Positions 1,924 through 8,807 of a stretch of 8,807 bases of DNA are shown here, in pieces (positions within the stretch are counted from its first letter, which is position 1; the number at the start of each line of letters is the position of its first letter). Source of the DNA: JACPSX01 sp035288405 [NCBI: bacterium]. Lineage in GTDB: Bacteria > JACPSX01. The notes under the pieces are model-generated. The model was not told the DNA's origin. It did no database searches and saw nothing but the letters and a program-made list of their open reading frames with translations. The stretch is taken from contig DATEAK010000264.1 in assembly GCA_035288405.1 (NCBI GenBank), positions 1 to 8,807 on the forward strand, in the 5' to 3' direction. The translations under genes and the position numbers were made by a program.

Positions 1924-3339
1924 CTAAATGTTTGTTGAGCTTGAAGCCTCCATGCGGCCGGCCACTTTCTTCGTTGCTTCTCTCAGGAGCCGTTTGTGGG
2001 CCAGGGCACTGTGCTTTATGAATATGCGGAATTTGACGATTTTTACCGGGAAGGTGTCAAACAACTCCCGGTAGTAGCGCTGGTCTACGGGTTCTTCCTC
2101 GGGATCGTAAATGTTGATTTGCTGAGGGCCGGCAAATGGATTGTCCGGCCGGGGATCAAATGGAGCCATGTCGACCGCGAATTCCAGATTCCGGAGATGG
2201 GAAGGAAGTTCCGCGCGGATCTGGTCCTCGATTTCTTCCGCGCGAGGAGGTCGGTGAAAGATCCCGCCGGACATGTATTGAATGCTCTGATCGTAAATCT
2301 CGCGCCAATCGAGCTTGCGCTCCAGAATTCGTTTCCATAGCTTGCCGAGATTCTGCTTCTTCAGATCAGAGCTTTCTTCCCAATCAGCAACCTGGGTCAG
2401 CAAGGACCAATCGGTCAGCCTGTAAAATGCCTCCAGGTGATTCAGCGGGTCGTTCGGGAAGAGAATCTCCATGGTCTCCGAGAACACTTCTTTCATCTGT
2501 AAGTCAATGAGCCGGGTAGTCCGGTGATAGTAGATGTTCTCGAAGAGATACTGTTTGGCCAGCAGGAACATCTTCAACGAGGAGATCCCGCGTTTGTGCA
2601 GGGTGAGCCCCCGATCGCTGAAAAAAGAATAGTAAATCAACCTCTCCGGGGCAACAGGGCCCAGATCAATGCCGCACATGTAGGAGTCGCGAACCACAAA
2701 GTCCATGTTATCCGCAGTGTAGACTCCGGAAAGGAGTGGGCGCATGAAGTGGAGCCAGCGCGGATATTCCGTTTCACGAGTTCCGGAAGGTTTCTTGATC
2801 AGGAAGGTTAAGAACTCGGGTTGAAGGGACTCGTCCGGAAAGAAAGCCCCATCCGGGCTGCGCCGCACCGCACGGATCATGTCGGGGAGCTCTTTCAGGA
2901 TGATTTGCTGTCCGATGTCTTCATGGTTGATATGGAAGCGATGCTCCCAATATTCGTTGTCTAGGAAATGCCCGAAGGGGCCGTGACCTACGTCATGGAG
3001 AAGACCGGACAGGCGGGCCAGCTCGACGCAGAAGTGAATGCTGGGAGCATCCAAGCAAACATTCTTGAGGGAGGGATAGAGGGAGGTCATGAATCTCCCG
3101 GCCAGGTGCATGACCCCGACCGAGTGCTGGAAACGTGTATGTTCGCCCGCAGGGTAGACCCACCAGGCCGACTGCAGTTGGTGTATGCGGCGGAGCCGTT
3201 GGACCCAACGGGAATCAATAAGGTCTTTCTCTGTGACTTCTCGGGTATTTTCTGCAGGCACGGTGAGGGAGATAAACTTGTGAATCGGATCGCCTAAGAG
3301 GCCCTCGGAAAGGAACTTTTCGTCCCCGGAAATGGCCAA
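1924..3339 (-). CDS. HD-domain phosphohydrolase, SAMHD1/dGTPase-like
   Basis: This 471-residue cytoplasmic protein is of the COG1078/SAMHD1 type; characterised relatives hydrolyse dNTPs to deoxynucleoside plus triphosphate. The metal ligands are visible: H72 in RFQHSVGV, H115-D116 in LLHDVGHGPFGH, and D210 in TADNMDF. They match SAMHD1 H167, H206-D207 and D311. H119 and H139 (in NHEDIG) occupy the positions of the SAMHD1 catalytic histidines H210 and H233. The segments YYHRTTRLIDLQM (271-283) and LEAFYRLTDWSL (302-313) also resemble SAMHD1, as does the C-terminal lobe (about 386-442). TTG is chosen as start because GGAGGTG lies 4 bases upstream and no in-frame ATG is better placed. It is the first gene of a two-gene unit with the glutaredoxin-thioredoxin reductase. 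The exact substrate (dGTP, several dNTPs, or other) cannot be read from the sequence. Confidence 0.9.
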   Translation of the reverse strand: MAISGDEKFLSEGLLGDPIHKFISLTVPAENTREVTEKDLIDSRWVQRLRRIHQLQSAWWVYPAGEHTRFQHSVGVMHLAGRFMTSLYPSLKNVCLDAPSIHFCVELARLSGLLHDVGHGPFGHFLDNEYWEHRFHINHEDIGQQIILKELPDMIRAVRRSPDGAFFPDESLQPEFLTFLIKKPSGTRETEYPRWLHFMRPLLSGVYTADNMDFVVRDSYMCGIDLGPVAPERLIYYSFFSDRGLTLHKRGISSLKMFLLAKQYLFENIYYHRTTRLIDLQMKEVFSETMEILFPNDPLNHLEAFYRLTDWSLLTQVADWEESSDLKKQNLGKLWKRILERKLDWREIYDQSIQYMSGGIFHRPPRAEEIEDQIRAELPSHLRNLEFAVDMAPFDPRPDNPFAGPQQINIYDPEEEPVDQRYYRELFDTFPVKIVKFRIFIKHSALAHKRLLREATKKVAGRMEASSSTNI

Positions 3340-3639: not shown

Positions 3640-4074
3640 ATGGTTTTAATCGAAACTGCAATAGATAAATTGAGAGAGCAAGGGTTTAAGGTTACTCCCC
3701 AAAGGATCGCGATTCTGAAGGCCCTTCTTAACAATACGGCTCATCCAACGGCTGAGGCCATTTATGAGTTGGTCCGAGTAGAACATCCGACTATGTCCTT
3801 AAATACTGTCTATAAGACGCTGGAAGTTCTCGGATCCATTGGTGAGGTTGTAGTGCTCAACGTGAAGGAAGGGCGAAATCATTTCGATCCGAACACGTCT
3901 CCGCATCACCATTTTGTATGCCGGCGTTGCCGGAAAATCCTCGATGTGCATGGGGATTATTCGGATGCTTTTGTAGTTCCAGCAGACTTGAAAGACCGCC
4001 ACCAAGTTGAAGGCTATCAGGTGGAGTTTTTTGGAGTTTGTAAGGAATGCGAGGCTCGCGGAGCAGACGGTTAG
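3640..4074 (+). CDS. perR: PerR-type peroxide-responsive repressor (Fur family)
   Basis: This 144-residue protein has an N-terminal winged helix (about 1-80; recognition region SLNTVYKTLEVL) and a C-terminal metal-binding dimerisation domain. All regulatory metal ligands of Bacillus subtilis PerR are present with an offset of two: H35, D83, H89, H91 and D102 (Bacillus H37, D85, H91, H93, D104). The aspartate at 102 favours PerR over Fur, which has glutamate there. The structural zinc site is C94-x-x-C97 and C134-x-x-C137. In the family, Fe-catalysed oxidation of the two histidines equivalent to H35 and H89 by H2O2 releases DNA. It is divergent from the HD/trxB unit and just upstream of rubrerythrin, an expected target. 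Its codons look more AT-rich than its neighbours, which may reflect acquisition or weaker codon selection. Confidence 0.93.
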   Translation: MVLIETAIDKLREQGFKVTPQRIAILKALLNNTAHPTAEAIYELVRVEHPTMSLNTVYKTLEVLGSIGEVVVLNVKEGRNHFDPNTSPHHHFVCRRCRKILDVHGDYSDAFVVPADLKDRHQVEGYQVEFFGVCKECEARGADG

Positions 4075-4177
4075 TTCTTGGGAAGGTGCATTTTTAGCAG
4101 AGGAATTTTAGGAAGCTGGGTTGGAAAAGGCAGCGGCTGTGACGAAACGGCAGGCAATCGGATATGAGGAGGAAGAA

Positions 4178-4603
4178 ATGGGGAAACCACTGGCAAGCAC
4201 GAAAACGTTTCAGAATCTGAAGGAAGGATTTGCAGGGGAGTCACAAGCAAACCGGCGTTATCTTTACTTTGCTCGCAAGGCGGACATTGAGGGCTATCCG
4301 GATGTAGCGGGGGTGTTCCGGGATACCGCGGAGGGGGAGACGGGGCACGCCTTTGGGCATTTTGATTTTCTCAGTGAAGTCGGGGACCCGGTGACGGGGG
4401 TTCCGGTGGGTGGGACGGATAAAAACCTGAAGTCGGCGGTGGAAGGGGAGACCTACGAGTACACGCAGATGTACCCGGGGTTTGCCAAGACGGCGCGGGA
4501 GGAAGGGTTTGAGGAGATTGCGGAGTGGTTTGAGACTCTGGCCCGGGCCGAGAAGTCCCACGCAGGGCGTTTCACGAAGGCCCTGGAATCCTTAAAATCC
4601 TAA
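4178..4603 (+). CDS. rbr: Rubrerythrin lacking the rubredoxin domain
   Basis: This 141-residue di-iron protein is a four-helix ferritin-like bundle that reduces H2O2 to water in anaerobes. Probable iron ligands are E21 (GESQANRRY), E54 and H57 (EGETGH), E91 and E94 ([10 protein letters not shown]), and E125 and H128 (AEKSH), matching the rubrerythrin pattern. The protein ends right after the fourth helix, so the C-terminal Cys-x-x-Cys rubredoxin domain of classical rubrerythrin (about 190 residues) is absent and a separate electron donor is needed. The ATG at 4178 is preferred over an in-frame TTG at 4121 because GAGGAGGAAG precedes it and the family begins here. It follows perR by 103 bp with no clear promoter, so it may be read from the perR promoter. 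Codons are strongly G-rich (many GGG and GCG). Confidence 0.93.
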
Positions 4604-4622
4604 AAGGAATTCATATATCTCA

Positions 4623-4642
4623 GACCAGCCTGGCAGGCGGTC
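4623..4642 (+). other. Stem-loop just after rubrerythrin
   Basis: GACC (4623-4626) and GCCT (4628-4631) pair with AGGC (4635-4638) and GGTC (4639-4642), with one bulged A and a 3-base loop. The stem starts about 20 bases past the stop codon. It lacks a proper T-run, so it may protect the mRNA 3' end or act together with the terminator that follows. Confidence 0.55.
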
Positions 4643-4655
4643 TTTCGGCGAGGGG

Positions 4656-4695
4656 AAAAGGGGTTGGGCACGGAGGGGGGCCCAGCCCCTTTTTT
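4656..4695 (+). terminator. Rho-independent terminator after rubrerythrin
   Basis: AAAAGGGGTTGGGC (4656-4669) pairs with GCCCAGCCCCTTTT (4680-4693) over 14 bp with one G-T wobble and a 10-base loop, ending in a run of six T (4690-4695). It closes the perR-rubrerythrin transcript. Confidence 0.88.
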
Positions 4696-4957
4696 ATCCG
4701 TGTTCCAGATCCTCCCTGTCCTTCGGGGAGGAGAGTCGTTTATCCAGAGAATTTCTATGGATACCGCTTGATCGCTACGCCAGAATTTTTGCCGCTTTCG
4801 GCCTTGATCCGTTCATAGCTCCCCTTAGTTCCACACCGGCGCCAAGCCGGCTGATTCCCGGGCACTAAGTGAGGTGATGATGCTATGCGGGATGAGTGAG
4901 GAACGCAAGGTGTGTTCACTCAGGGAGAGACAACCCTTTCAAGAGAGGAGAAAGATC
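4696..4957. other. Intergenic leader region before the thioferritin gene
   Basis: No gene is recognised in this stretch. A small hairpin, CCTCCC (4711-4716) with GGGAGG (4726-4731), is present. No convincing -35/-10 pair is visible, although a promoter is expected after the strong terminator. The thioferritin frame is open back to a GTG-ATG-ATG cluster at 4874, preceded by a weak purine stretch, so a 28-residue N-terminal extension is possible but not favoured. Confidence 0.5.
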
Positions 4958-5509
4958 ATGGCCAAGGTAGCGCGAGAGATGGTGGAGAAGGCGGGAGTCA
5001 ATGTTGAACAACTCGTAAAGATGTTGGTCGACAATGCGGCTGCCGAACTCACCACCTATTACTACTACACGATCCTGCGGGTGAACCTGATCGGACTGGA
5101 GGGGGAAGGCCTCAAGCAGATTACCGAAGACGCCCGCATCGAAGACCGCAATCACTTCGAGGCCCTGGTGCCTCGCATCTACGAACTCGGCGGCAAGCTG
5201 CCCGGGGACATGAAGGTGTTCCATGATACCTCGGCCTGTCCGCCGGCGACCCTGCCAAGGGATCCGAGTGATATCCAGGCAATGCTTAAAGTGCTCGTGG
5301 AAGCGGAGAGATGCGCGGTGAGGGGGTATACAAGCATCTGCAACATGACTGCCGGCAAGGATCATCGGACCTACGATTTGGCCCTGGCGATCCTGCATGA
5401 GGAAGTCGAGCACGAAGCCTGGTTCTCCGAATTCCTGGGCGAGGGTCCCTCAGGCCATTTTAACCGCCGCGGTGAGAACTCACCTTTCGTGTCGAAATTC
5501 CTGAAATAA
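4958..5509 (+). CDS. Dps-like ferritin (DPSL, thioferritin family)
   Basis: This 183-residue ferritin-like protein resembles archaeal and anaerobe DPSL proteins, which form 12-subunit cages like Dps but carry a bacterioferritin-type intra-subunit di-iron site and use H2O2 to oxidise Fe(II). Candidate ligands are E30, the E62-D63-R64-N65-H66 segment, E115 or E117, and E149-x-x-H152. C119 and C128 in ERCAVRGYTSIC form the cysteine pair near the metal site that defines thioferritins; C94 is an extra cysteine. The phrase IYELGGKLPGD is typical of the family. The ATG at 4958 is chosen because AGAGAGGAG precedes it and the N-terminus MAKVAREMVEKAG fits the family. With perR and rubrerythrin upstream it completes a peroxide/iron detoxification cluster, though a terminator separates the transcripts. 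Confidence 0.88.
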   Translation: MAKVAREMVEKAGVNVEQLVKMLVDNAAAELTTYYYYTILRVNLIGLEGEGLKQITEDARIEDRNHFEALVPRIYELGGKLPGDMKVFHDTSACPPATLPRDPSDIQAMLKVLVEAERCAVRGYTSICNMTAGKDHRTYDLALAILHEEVEHEAWFSEFLGEGPSGHFNRRGENSPFVSKFLK

Positions 5510-5525
5510 GTTCGCAGTGGGACAG

Positions 5526-5573
5526 GGGAGGCTCGATAGAGTTCGGGTCTCCCCGAGGATCCTCGATTCTCCC
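5526..5573 (+). other. Nested stem-loop after the thioferritin gene
   Basis: GGGAG (5526-5530) and TCGA (5533-5536) pair with TCGA (5563-5566) and CTCCC (5569-5573). Inside lies a second hairpin, TCGGG (5543-5547) with CCCGA (5552-5556). There is no adjacent T-run, so it is either a factor-assisted terminator or an mRNA-stabilising structure at the end of the thioferritin transcript. Confidence 0.5.
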
Positions 5574-5592
5574 TTCCGCAACATCGTTTGCA

Positions 5593-5622
5593 TTGCGTCC
5601 TTACCTGCGATAACGTTATAAT
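5593..5622 (+). promoter_or_regulatory. Sigma70-type promoter of the midA-glcF-nuo unit
   Basis: A consensus TATAAT (5617-5622) has TTGCGT (5593-5598) upstream at an 18-base spacing. The -10 overlaps a 10-bp palindrome, ATAACGTTAT (5610-5619). The expected transcript start, 6-8 bases downstream, falls in a run of nine T (5626-5634). GGGAG (5639-5643) serves as ribosome binding site for midA. Confidence 0.65.
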
Positions 5623-5649
5623 CTATTTTTTTTTACCCGGGAGTTTTGG

Positions 5650-6843
5650 ATGGAAAAATGTCCAACGCCCTCTGCAGTTAAGCAGAGTCTGGCCGCACGC
5701 ATACGGGAAAAGGGGCCGATTCCCTTCTCGGAATTTATGGAGTTCGCCCTCTACGATCCTTCGTGGGGTTACTACATACGGGAGCACCCCACGGCAAGTC
5801 GTAACGGAGATTTCATTACCAGCGTATCCGTGCACCCCCTCTTTGGCCAATGCCTGGCCGTTCAGATCGCCGAGATGGCCGAAAGAATGGGGACGAAGAG
5901 TTTCCAAATCATCGAGTTTGGTGGTGGGAAAGGTGCTCTTTGCGTGGATATCCTGAAGTGTCTTAAAGAGGAATTTCCACGGGTTTACCAGCGTACGTAC
6001 TACAGGATTGTGGAAGTTGCCGAGTCTCCTTCCTCATTCTGGGAAGAGGTGGATCGATGGGTGCCGGAGTGTCGGGAGCGCCTTTCTTGGCTCACTCCTA
6101 CGGAGTGGAACCTGGACTCGTCTCCTTTCAGTGGGTGCGTCTTAGCCCAGGAATTTCTGGATGCTCTCCCCGTTCACCGGGTCGTCCGCAGCCGTGGGGA
6201 CTGGGAAGAGATTTACGTCGATTACCAGAAGGGATCATTCAAAGAAGTGGCAGGGCCTCTCTCTTCATCCGACCTTCGTGAGGTCTGCCAGAGCGTGCCG
6301 GAGGGAGAATCGTTAACGGAAGGAGCTGCACTAGAGATCAACTTGGCGGCGGTTCGCTGGCTCGAGGGAATCGCAGCGCGGTTGCAGCAAGGCTATATTC
6401 TCATTTTGGATTACGGCGCCTGGGGAGCGCCCTTGCTGGCCGATACGCTGTCCTGCTACTTTCGCCATACGGTTCATCATAACCCGTATATCCGGCTTGG
6501 GGAGCAAGACATGACCACCCATGTAGATTTCCACAGCCTGGTTCTTGCTGCCCAGAGGACTGGCTTGGTACCGCGGGGTTTGGTATCTCAAACCAGGTTT
6601 CTCTTCAACCTGGGGATTGTGGAACGGGCGTCTAGAAGGTATGATTCGCTAGATTCATCTGTGGGACTGTCGGAGCGCCTGGCATTGAAGACCTTGACCC
6701 TGCCGGATGGCATGGGGGATCGGTTCTGGGTTTTTGTGCTGGAGAGGTCCATGGGGAAGGAATTGTTGCGGGGTCTTGAGTGCCGGGTTTTGACGGAAGG
6801 GCGAGAGGGGGCGCAGGACCCAGTTCTCTGTGCTTCGTTCTGA
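5650..6843 (+). CDS. midA: MidA/NDUFAF7-family SAM-dependent methyltransferase
   Basis: This 397-residue protein belongs to COG1565 (Methyltransf_28). Visible signatures in order are PFSEFMEFALYDPSWGYY (25-42), GDFITSVSVHPLFG (53-66), the SAM-binding loop IIEFGGGKGAL (87-97), AQEFLDALPVHRVV (166-179), YILILDYG (249-256) and the C-terminal block PYIRLGEQDMTTHVDF (279-294). The eukaryotic member NDUFAF7/MidA is a mitochondrial enzyme that symmetrically dimethylates an arginine of complex I subunit NDUFS2, the NuoD homologue, and is needed for complex I assembly. Here the gene heads a cluster that ends in nuoB and nuoD, which supports the same role in this bacterium (inference). The stop TGA lies 7 bases before the glcF ATG, indicating tight coupling. 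The last 25 residues or so extend beyond the conserved core. Confidence 0.9.
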   Translation: MEKCPTPSAVKQSLAARIREKGPIPFSEFMEFALYDPSWGYYIREHPTASRNGDFITSVSVHPLFGQCLAVQIAEMAERMGTKSFQIIEFGGGKGALCVDILKCLKEEFPRVYQRTYYRIVEVAESPSSFWEEVDRWVPECRERLSWLTPTEWNLDSSPFSGCVLAQEFLDALPVHRVVRSRGDWEEIYVDYQKGSFKEVAGPLSSSDLREVCQSVPEGESLTEGAALEINLAAVRWLEGIAARLQQGYILILDYGAWGAPLLADTLSCYFRHTVHHNPYIRLGEQDMTTHVDFHSLVLAAQRTGLVPRGLVSQTRFLFNLGIVERASRRYDSLDSSVGLSERLALKTLTLPDGMGDRFWVFVLERSMGKELLRGLECRVLTEGREGAQDPVLCASF

Positions 6844-6850
6844 GGAAGAC

Positions 6851-8170
6851 ATGGCCGGAACAGTCGCTGAAGTTGAATTAGGGCGCTGTGTCTCATCTAG
6901 TGAAGATTATTACCAGGGACTACTCTCCTGTGTTCACTGTGGACTGTGTCTTCCTGCCTGCCCGACTTACCGGGAGCTGGGTACCGAAATGGATTCACCT
7001 CGAGGCCGCATTTCCCTCATGCGTGCAGTGGCGGAAGGACAGATTCATCTCTCGTCTCGAGTTCTCCGGCATATTGATCTTTGCCTGGGGTGCCGGGCCT
7101 GTGAACCCGCCTGTCCTTCGGGGGTACCCTATGGCAGCCTCCTGGAGTGGACTCGGGAGCAGTCGGCGAAGCGCGGCAATGACGATAGTAAGGCGAATAA
7201 CCTGAAGCGGGTTTATCGGAGTTTATTCGGCCACACTGGGTTTCTTAATTGGCTATGCCAGATGGTTCGAATCTACCAGATCACGGGGCTTGAGAAAGTG
7301 GTGAGGAGATCCGGAGTTTTGCACTGCTTTCCCGAGAAGATTCGAGGATTGGAGTCGATGCTTCCGACAGTGCCCGCCTGGCATGAGCGCAGACCCATTC
7401 CGGAAATGTTTGGTTCTGCCGGACAGGCCGGCGTGGTCGGCCTGTTTGCGGGCTGTGTGGGGTCAACTTTGTTCGGAAGGGTGAATCGGTTCGCGGCACG
7501 GATCTTGGCCTATCACGGTTTTCAGACCCATACTCCAGCCGGACAAGTCTGTTGTGGCGCGTTGCAGTGGCACAGCGGCGATCGGGAGGGTGCCCGGTCA
7601 CTGGCGAAGCGGAACGTCGAAGCTTTCGCCCAATCAGGGTCCGGGGAAATTCTCGTCGCGGCGGCAGGCTGTGGGGCCGTCCTTAAAGAATACGGGGAGC
7701 TCCTAGATGGCGTGCCAGCAGCCGTAAGTTTCAGCAGCCGGGTGAGAGACATCAACGAATTTCTCGGAGGGCTGCACCTGCGCCGTCCCCCGGTGAGTCT
7801 ACCTCTCAAAGTCACCTACCAGGATCCTTGTCACCTGGCGCACGTCCAAGGCGTCCGCGGGGAACCGCGGCGTTTGCTGGCAGCGATTCCTGGAATTGAA
7901 TTGGTGGAAATGCCCGATTCGGACCGCTGTTGCGGCAGTGCAGGAACATATACGATCAGGGAGTACGAAATGTCCATGCGCTTGCTGAAAAGCAAGATGC
8001 GCGCTGTCGCTTCCACGGGAGCGCAGGCAATTGTCACAGCCAATCCGGGATGCCACATACAGCTTGAAGGCGGAACCCGGAAGTTTGGGCCGCAGATCCC
8101 GGTCTATCATGTGGTGGAGTTGCTGGCCAGATCTTACGGCCTGGCCGGTCCGGCTACCTGGAAGAACTGA
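6851..8170 (+). CDS. glcF: Glycolate oxidase iron-sulfur subunit-like protein (GlcF)
   Basis: This 439-residue protein has two N-terminal 4Fe-4S motifs, C27-x2-C30-x2-C33-x3-C37-P and C78-x2-C81-x2-C84-x3-C88-P. Two CCG (DUF224) domains follow: C202, C234-C235-G and C274, then C327, C360-C361-G and C401. The architecture is shared with HdrD-like proteins, but the stretch CPTYRELGTEMDSPRGRISLM is characteristic of GlcF. GlcF passes electrons from a FAD-linked 2-hydroxyacid dehydrogenase (GlcD/GlcE) toward the quinone pool. No GlcD-like gene is in the window; the neighbours are midA (7 bp upstream) and nuoB (32 bp downstream). ATG 6851 is chosen because GAGGAAG precedes it; a GTG at 6830 would overlap midA by 14 bases. 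The substrate could equally be lactate or another 2-hydroxyacid. Confidence 0.88.
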   Translation: MAGTVAEVELGRCVSSSEDYYQGLLSCVHCGLCLPACPTYRELGTEMDSPRGRISLMRAVAEGQIHLSSRVLRHIDLCLGCRACEPACPSGVPYGSLLEWTREQSAKRGNDDSKANNLKRVYRSLFGHTGFLNWLCQMVRIYQITGLEKVVRRSGVLHCFPEKIRGLESMLPTVPAWHERRPIPEMFGSAGQAGVVGLFAGCVGSTLFGRVNRFAARILAYHGFQTHTPAGQVCCGALQWHSGDREGARSLAKRNVEAFAQSGSGEILVAAAGCGAVLKEYGELLDGVPAAVSFSSRVRDINEFLGGLHLRRPPVSLPLKVTYQDPCHLAHVQGVRGEPRRLLAAIPGIELVEMPDSDRCCGSAGTYTIREYEMSMRLLKSKMRAVASTGAQAIVTANPGCHIQLEGGTRKFGPQIPVYHVVELLARSYGLAGPATWKN

Positions 8171-8202
8171 GAAACGATTTGAACTGTCTTTAGGGAGCGG
8201 AT

Positions 8203-8688
8203 ATGGGAAAAGAAGAGGGAAGCGGAGATCACGTTTTTAGGGATGTGTTTTTGACTCGGGTTGATGATCTCGTTAATTGGTCCCGGAAAAATTCCCTGTG
8301 GCCGGCCATGTTCGGTCTGGCCTGTTGTGCCATCGAGATGATGGCCACGAGCACTTCCCGCTACGATTTGGCCCGCTTCGGAGCCGAAGTCTTCCGAGCC
8401 TCGCCGCGCCAGGCCGATCTCATGATTGTGGCAGGTCGGGTCTCGGCGAAAATGGCGCCGGTGCTGCGTCGCATATACGACCAGATGCCCAACCCCAAGT
8501 GGGTCATCTCTATGGGGGCGTGCGCCTCTACCGGCGGGATGTTTGACAACTATGCCATTGTTCAGGGAGTTGATCAGGTCGTTCCCGTGGACATTTATGT
8601 TCCGGGGTGTCCTCCGAGGCCTGAAGCTCTGATGGAGGGGATTATTAAGCTCCAGGAGAAGATTGCGAAGGAGAGGGTACTGCGCTAG
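8203..8688 (+). CDS. nuoB: NADH-quinone oxidoreductase subunit B
   Basis: This 161-residue subunit binds cluster N2, the last Fe-S centre before quinone reduction in complex I. The four expected cysteines are C41-C42 ([10 protein letters not shown]), C107 ([10 protein letters not shown]) and C136 ([10 protein letters not shown]). Conserved segments [27 protein letters not shown] and [11 protein letters not shown] are intact, and the length is normal. The start ATG follows TAGGGAGCGGAT. It is 32 bp after glcF and 66 bp before nuoD, in one apparent operon. Unusually, nuoA is not directly upstream and nuoC is not directly downstream. The long open frame on the opposite strand (8134-8799) is a shadow. 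Confidence 0.97.
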
Positions 8689-8754
8689 CGGCGTTGTCGC
8701 AGAATCCACAATGGTAGCAGGCGTGAGAATTCCCACACGAATCAAGGGGCAGTT
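8689..8754 (+). other. 66-bp spacer where nuoC would be expected
   Basis: The gap between nuoB and nuoD is far too short for nuoC (about 150-200 codons). It contains AAGGGGC (8744-8750), which can serve as ribosome binding site for nuoD. No promoter or hairpin is evident. Confidence 0.75.
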
Positions 8755-8807
8755 ATGGCGCAAACCGAGACAATGATCCTGAACATGGGGCCTCAGCATC
8801 CGAGCAC
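8755..8807 (+). CDS. nuoD: NADH-quinone oxidoreductase subunit D, 3'-truncated by the window edge
   Basis: Only 17 full codons are visible: MAQTETMILNMGPQHPS, followed by the first two bases (AC) of the next codon. MGPQHPST is the near-invariant N-terminal signature of NuoD (the 49-kDa subunit, homologue of NDUFS2), which with NuoB forms the quinone pocket. The protein begins directly with the NuoD domain, so it is not a NuoCD fusion. The arginine methylated by NDUFAF7 in the mitochondrial homologue lies beyond the window. The start follows AAGGGGCAGTT. Confidence 0.9.
   Translation, partial: MAQTETMILNMGPQHPS

Follow-up and report, generated by a model that had tools for sequence, protein, structure and literature searches.

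NDUFAF7 dimethylates Arg85 of the complex I subunit NDUFS2, the NuoD homologue, in humans (PMC3829151). The same methylation, as symmetric dimethylarginine, is present in NuoD of Paracoccus denitrificans, and the equivalent arginine of E. coli is described as unmodified (PMC3750175). In Thermus, a threonine stands at the target site and Arg83 of Nqo6 (NuoB) occupies the same space (PMC8042128); this swap had been proposed earlier with support from coevolution (PMC5552823). For alphaproteobacterial homologues of NDUFAF7, bioinformatic and structural evidence points to methylation of NuoD, according to a review (PMC9006661). Beyond the alphaproteobacteria, only homology was found in the literature for NuoD methylation by the bacterial family member, MidA. 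In the literature searched, we found no published report of a co-occurrence of MidA with a NuoD type or of midA-nuo linkage, and an earlier one may exist. Herein, we analyzed a stretch of 8,807 nucleotides (the window), contig DATEAK010000264.1 of the bacterium JACPSX01 sp035288405, in which a midA gene precedes nuoB and nuoD. A sequence-only reading of the window had proposed MidA and the adjacent NuoD as a conserved enzyme-substrate pair. Our results support this pairing better than before as a claim on bacterial MidA generally, and suggest that at this locus it is probably wrong.

The window shares with the human and Dictyostelium systems, in which NDUFAF7 or MidA acts on NDUFS2 Arg85, the protein family, the fold and the association with complex I genes. 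It differs from them in that, by prediction, the target arginine is missing from the neighbouring complex I, and the activity of its MidA is a prediction. In Nitrospira and relatives (loci L006-L008, L018-L020, L023, L029 and L030), midA stands directly before the nuo genes on the same strand, as in the window, in the order midA-nuoA-nuoB-nuoC-nuoD. However, these clusters contain nuoA and nuoC and encode a NuoB with threonine and a NuoD with arginine, whereas the window has a GlcF-like gene before nuoB, lacks nuoA and nuoC and encodes a NuoB with arginine. The arginine in NuoB is shared with the Thermus type of complex I (Nqo4 Thr, Nqo6 Arg83), from which the window is set apart by the midA alongside; Thermus composti gave no match to PF02636. 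The locus is a variant of the known midA-nuo association and a useful test case.

Complex I occurs in two types, with either arginine in NuoD (the target of MidA/NDUFAF7) and threonine in NuoB, or threonine in NuoD and arginine in NuoB. The window end cuts nuoD (8755-8807, plus strand) after 17 codons, translated as MAQTETMILNMGPQHPS, and the target-site residue lies beyond it. The complete nuoB (8203-8688, plus strand) encodes 161 residues that match PF01058 (E 2.8e-32) and the NCBIfam NuoB subfamily (265.7 bits, cut-off 116). In phmmer alignments, its Arg79 (codon 8437-8439, plus strand), which marks the swapped type, aligned with Arg83 of T. thermophilus Nqo6 (2fug_6) and with an arginine of 8e9g_B, which we take to be the Mycobacterium smegmatis chain. 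Threonine occupied this position in 7awt_B, presumably the E. coli chain, and in the mitochondrial chains. We compared the aligned residues of 98 distinct NuoB/NuoD pairs and found 65 Thr/Arg, 27 Arg/Thr and 6 others, the last being low-scoring paralogues with proline in NuoB. Arg/Arg and Thr/Thr pairs were absent among the 98, and the use of all 331 loci gave identical counts. The swap therefore held without exception in the 92 pairs with arginine or threonine in NuoB, part of the Thr-type regions having been picked on NuoD type before NuoB was inspected. An earlier tally of pairs by motif only had given 30 Thr/Arg and 19 Arg/Thr. Nonomuraea and Tsukamurella (Arg/Thr) and E. coli (Thr/Arg) were consistent with the swap. 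When 71 NuoB rows were placed in a tree, that of the window fell within a clade of 23 NuoB-Arg rows (support 97/89). Given Arg79, the exceptionless swap and the position in the NuoB-Arg clade, we predict that the window NuoD almost certainly carries threonine at the target site. Lack of the target arginine, which the sequence-only reading had named as evidence against its own proposal, is therefore what NuoB predicts here, as NuoD had threonine in 27/27 such pairs.

The presence of MidA was compared with the NuoD type in 388 genomes of three phyla, in which the NuoD site was read by a degenerate pattern that returns the target codon. The phylum labels follow the records at the centre of each set, one from a Nitrospira, one from Thermomicrobiales and one from Acidobacteria. 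Under the current NCBI taxonomy, Thermomicrobiales belongs to Thermomicrobiota; we take Chloroflexota, used here for that set, to be the GTDB name. For Nitrospirota, a match to the window protein at E 1e-3 counted as MidA; for Chloroflexota and Acidobacteriota, the PF02636 cut-off was applied. Of the genomes with a NuoD motif of the Arg type, 177 of 240 had MidA, versus 3 of the 67 with a Thr-type motif only, counts that exclude 51 genomes without an accepted NuoD motif and 30 with incompletely listed matches. By phylum, the respective values were 81/96 and 0/4 in Nitrospirota (118 genomes), 47/70 and 2/50 in Chloroflexota (141 genomes), and 49/74 and 1/13 in Acidobacteriota (129 genomes). A threshold of at least 60 bits in the latter two phyla changed the totals to 174/240 and 2/67. 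The Fisher values for MidA versus NuoD type were 1e-3, 2e-13 and 9e-5. Among genomes with both NuoD types, MidA was found in 30/35, indicating that the presence of an arginine NuoD is what matters. The Arg type does not depend on MidA, since 63 of the 240 Arg-type genomes and the control E. coli do without it.

The NuoD pattern misses variants, so a second check was made of all 11 MidA-positive genomes without a motif and of the 3 MidA-positive Thr-only genomes; the 40 MidA-negative genomes without a motif stand as first called. All five Chloroflexota among the 11 had the arginine in an H-R-S variant, and the six Nitrospirota stayed without a NuoD type call. Among Chloroflexota with MidA, the target site took the form H-R-S or H-R-N in L263-L267 and L271. 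One Thr-only genome, G235, also had an H-R-N arginine variant, which would bring the Thr-only count to 2/66. A Thr-type NuoD occurred in 33 MidA-positive genomes; the pattern showed the Arg type as well in 30 of them, a number that this re-check raised to 31. The phylum of genome G031 (198 genomes, 71 MidA matches, some weak or partial) gave no contrast, because no Thr-type NuoD was among the matches listed.

Linkage of midA to nuo genes, for which the sequence-only reading had called for a survey across genomes, recurs in several phyla. A midA lay within 10 kb of a NuoD motif in 40 MidA-positive genomes, and all 40 were Arg-type. These were 27/87 of the MidA-positive Nitrospirota, 10/56 of the Chloroflexota and 3/61 of the Acidobacteriota, all counts being lower bounds. 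In Acidobacteriota, nuoB directly adjoined midA, sometimes behind nuoI, in 7 of 30 loci (L229, L230, L234, L240, L243, L252 and L256), and in the genomes of these seven loci the 10 kb around midA held no NuoD motif. A first scan had found nuo genes in 19 of 80 midA loci, many of which are truncated. These genes included a NuoD homologue, which we take to be ndhH in cyanobacterial naming, adjoining midA in the cyanobacterial loci L012, L017, L034 and L035. Four of 64 genomes in the phylum of G039 had a clear MidA, and in three of the four midA was divergent from nuoA-nuoB. In G684, the 2.7 kb of sequence with the longer MidA match contained no nuo gene; nuoA-nuoB adjoined a second, shorter match covering residues 17-70. 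Linkage was not universal: midA lay between lgt and pgeF in Azospirillum, and in Sphingomonas a GNAT gene separated midA from pgeF. The MidA tree requires at least 7 changes of the linkage label on well-supported branches (16 by parsimony), indicating that linkage was repeatedly gained or lost.

Residue types at the other linked loci were uniform. The midA-linked NuoB had threonine in 48/48 loci (41 genomes), and the midA-linked NuoD had arginine in 35/35 loci (34 genomes). The linked loci were partly selected, as many had been taken for a NuoD motif near midA; the survey held no Thr-type case to select. The window thus has the only midA-linked NuoB with arginine, where a MidA-NuoD pair would be expected to stand beside a Thr-type NuoB. 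Two Chloroflexota loci (L215 and L216) resemble the window in that nuoB adjoins nuoD and no NuoC match is present, but they are Arg-type and midA-linked. Taken as a rule, MidA is often kept where the arginine near the Fe-S cluster N2 is on NuoD and is nearly always absent where only the NuoB-arginine type is found. This rule is testable. It supports methylation of the NuoD arginine as an old step in bacterial complex I assembly, and it lets sequence predict which bacteria may methylate NuoD. The midA-nuo cluster of the window runs counter to the rule and offers a natural test for other substrates of MidA.

The window midA (5650-6843, plus strand) encodes a 397-aa protein of the NDUFAF7 family (PF02636, COG1565), matching PF02636 with 194.1 bits (cut-off 23.3; E 3.5e-57). 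Its AlphaFold2 model (mean predicted local distance difference test score, pLDDT, 90) matched the COG1565 structures 4g67 (E 1.6e-32) and 4f3n, Dictyostelium MidA 5ztz (2.1e-28) and 1zkd in Foldseek. The next, other methyltransferase reached only 2.4e-06, a far weaker match. Conservation reaches at least 90% among 155 relatives at 41 columns, of which the protein keeps 38. The departures, G50S, N167Q and G265D, fall at columns at least 95% conserved among the relatives; N167Q is also present in the aligned Dictyostelium MidA and so need not mean lost activity. By sequence and predicted fold, this is a genuine MidA/NDUFAF7-family protein with a predicted methyltransferase activity. Three trees gave it end branches of 1.58, 1.39 and 1.88 against medians of 0.44, 0.43 and 0.41; the branch was the third longest, not flagged as long, and the longest, respectively, and its length partly reflects missing relatives. 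Window MidA was firmly placed nowhere in the trees. A grouping of four rows with 95% support in the Shimodaira-Hasegawa-like approximate likelihood ratio test (SH-aLRT) appeared in one tree and was gone once more rows were added. A role of MidA as a DNA methylase, described as preliminary for Wolbachia (PMC12455994), was rejected for this locus, as the window holds nothing bearing on it.

We consider it likely that a complex I of the swapped type stands here beside a genuine MidA, which either has its substrate in a NuoD of the Arg type encoded elsewhere in the genome or is a remnant. The adjacent complex I would be of the Thermus type, with NuoB Arg79 supplying the arginine next to cluster N2. 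Since Arg79 predicts a threonine in NuoD, MidA would find no target in its neighbour, and its most likely substrate would be an arginine-bearing NuoD from a second complex I. Such action in trans is the likeliest course because 31/33 MidA-positive genomes with a Thr-type NuoD also have the Arg type. The gene may have been retained in this position or may be a relic, for instance if a Thr-type nuo set displaced an Arg-type one. Several points weigh against this explanation. The threonine is predicted from NuoB, as the NuoD target residue lies past the window end, and the second complex I is likewise predicted rather than observed. MidA occurs in two genomes in which only Thr-type NuoD was found, G167 (L198 and L219) and G310 (L260), so either MidA can exist without a target or these assemblies are incomplete. 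The Fisher values overstate the evidence, because genomes from one phylum do not count as independent observations. The MidA searches found no close relative of the locus; the top identity was 43%, in the phylum of G031, and the phylum of G039 held none closer.

If the adjacent NuoD had the arginine after all, MidA could dimethylate it during assembly of the locally encoded complex, as the sequence-only reading had it. The recurrent linkage of midA to nuo genes with Arg-type NuoD elsewhere and the symmetric dimethylation of Paracoccus NuoD (PMC3750175) speak for such a pair, but NuoB Arg79, the lack of Arg/Arg among the 98 pairs and the place of NuoB inside the NuoB-Arg clade make it extremely improbable here. 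Alternatively, MidA may have been retargeted to NuoB Arg79, whose place near N2 is that of the NuoD arginine, or to another product of the gene cluster, which we regard as unlikely. The overlap in space of the NuoD and NuoB arginines (PMC8042128) is consistent with retargeting, as are the long end branch of MidA, its departures at three highly conserved positions and the Thr-only genomes G167 and G310 that have MidA. However, 64 of the 67 Thr-only genomes and the control Thermus composti are without MidA, the branch length is partly due to missing relatives, and N167Q is common to Dictyostelium MidA. The particular course in which MidA stayed in the nuo cluster by following the arginine from NuoD to NuoB, and now methylates Arg79, is very unlikely; if true, an assembly methyltransferase would have switched subunit together with its target. 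It is doubtful, finally, that midA is functionally unrelated to these nuo genes and came to lie beside them by chance or by an assembly join. A GlcF-like gene in the place of nuoA, the missing nuoC and an rplC without rplD at the other window end would fit such an origin. So would the failure of the GlcF-like protein to match (E 1e-3) in any of the 331 compared loci, and the lack of a nuo match in 20 midA loci examined (6 of them shorter than 10 kb) from the phylum of G031, which has the closest MidA. Against it stand the tight gene spacing with plausible ribosome sites from midA to nuoD, a composition without a sharp break across 5500-8750, and the midA-nuo linkage in several other phyla. We retain the swapped complex I beside a MidA acting elsewhere, or left as a remnant, as the best explanation.

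The plus-strand order with nuoD last, and the gaps of 7, 32 and 66 bp, were as the sequence-only reading had described. Its title, which names midA, nuoB and nuoD, leaves out a fourth gene between midA and nuoB (6851-8170, plus strand). This gene encodes a GlcF/LdhH-like Fe-S oxidoreductase of 439 aa with a 4Fe-4S dicluster (PF13183) and two CCG stretches (PF02754) in the Pfam profiles. Its top NCBIfam model was GlcF with 267.9 bits, under the cut-off of 333, and an alternative GTG start at 6830 would make it overlap midA. Since nuoA and nuoC are absent from their usual places, before nuoB and in the 66 bp between nuoB and nuoD, the set of nuoA and nuoC alongside nuoB and nuoD is incomplete at the locus; operon content was judged up to the nuoD start, the genes 3' of it lying beyond the window. 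The single promoter claimed earlier was not confirmed. A consensus scan of 5400-8807 gave no plus-strand promoter and one minus-strand site (1.2 on average in shuffles), and a perfect TATAAT 5' of midA (5617-5622, plus strand) had no -35 accepted by the scan. Terminator-like sites, one within and one before midA, were not above chance (2 versus 3.9 in shuffles). A single transcript across the cluster is possible but unproven. The Rfam scan of the window gave no match at gathering scores.

The genes further upstream were of other kinds. Just before midA, 3640-5509 encodes a Fur/PerR-family regulator, a rubrerythrin and a Dps (archaeal model PRK13456), resembling a peroxide-stress cluster. An HD-domain protein with a TTG start (1924-3339) showed weak dGTPase similarity only, and this weak dGTPase match was the sole one in PADLOC. 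At 677-1885, a thioredoxin reductase with an N-terminal glutaredoxin domain is encoded in a single reading frame. The window opens with rplC (L3) at 2-523, followed (523-677) by the opposite-strand trxB instead of rplD, which reflects a disrupted S10 operon or else a join made in assembly.

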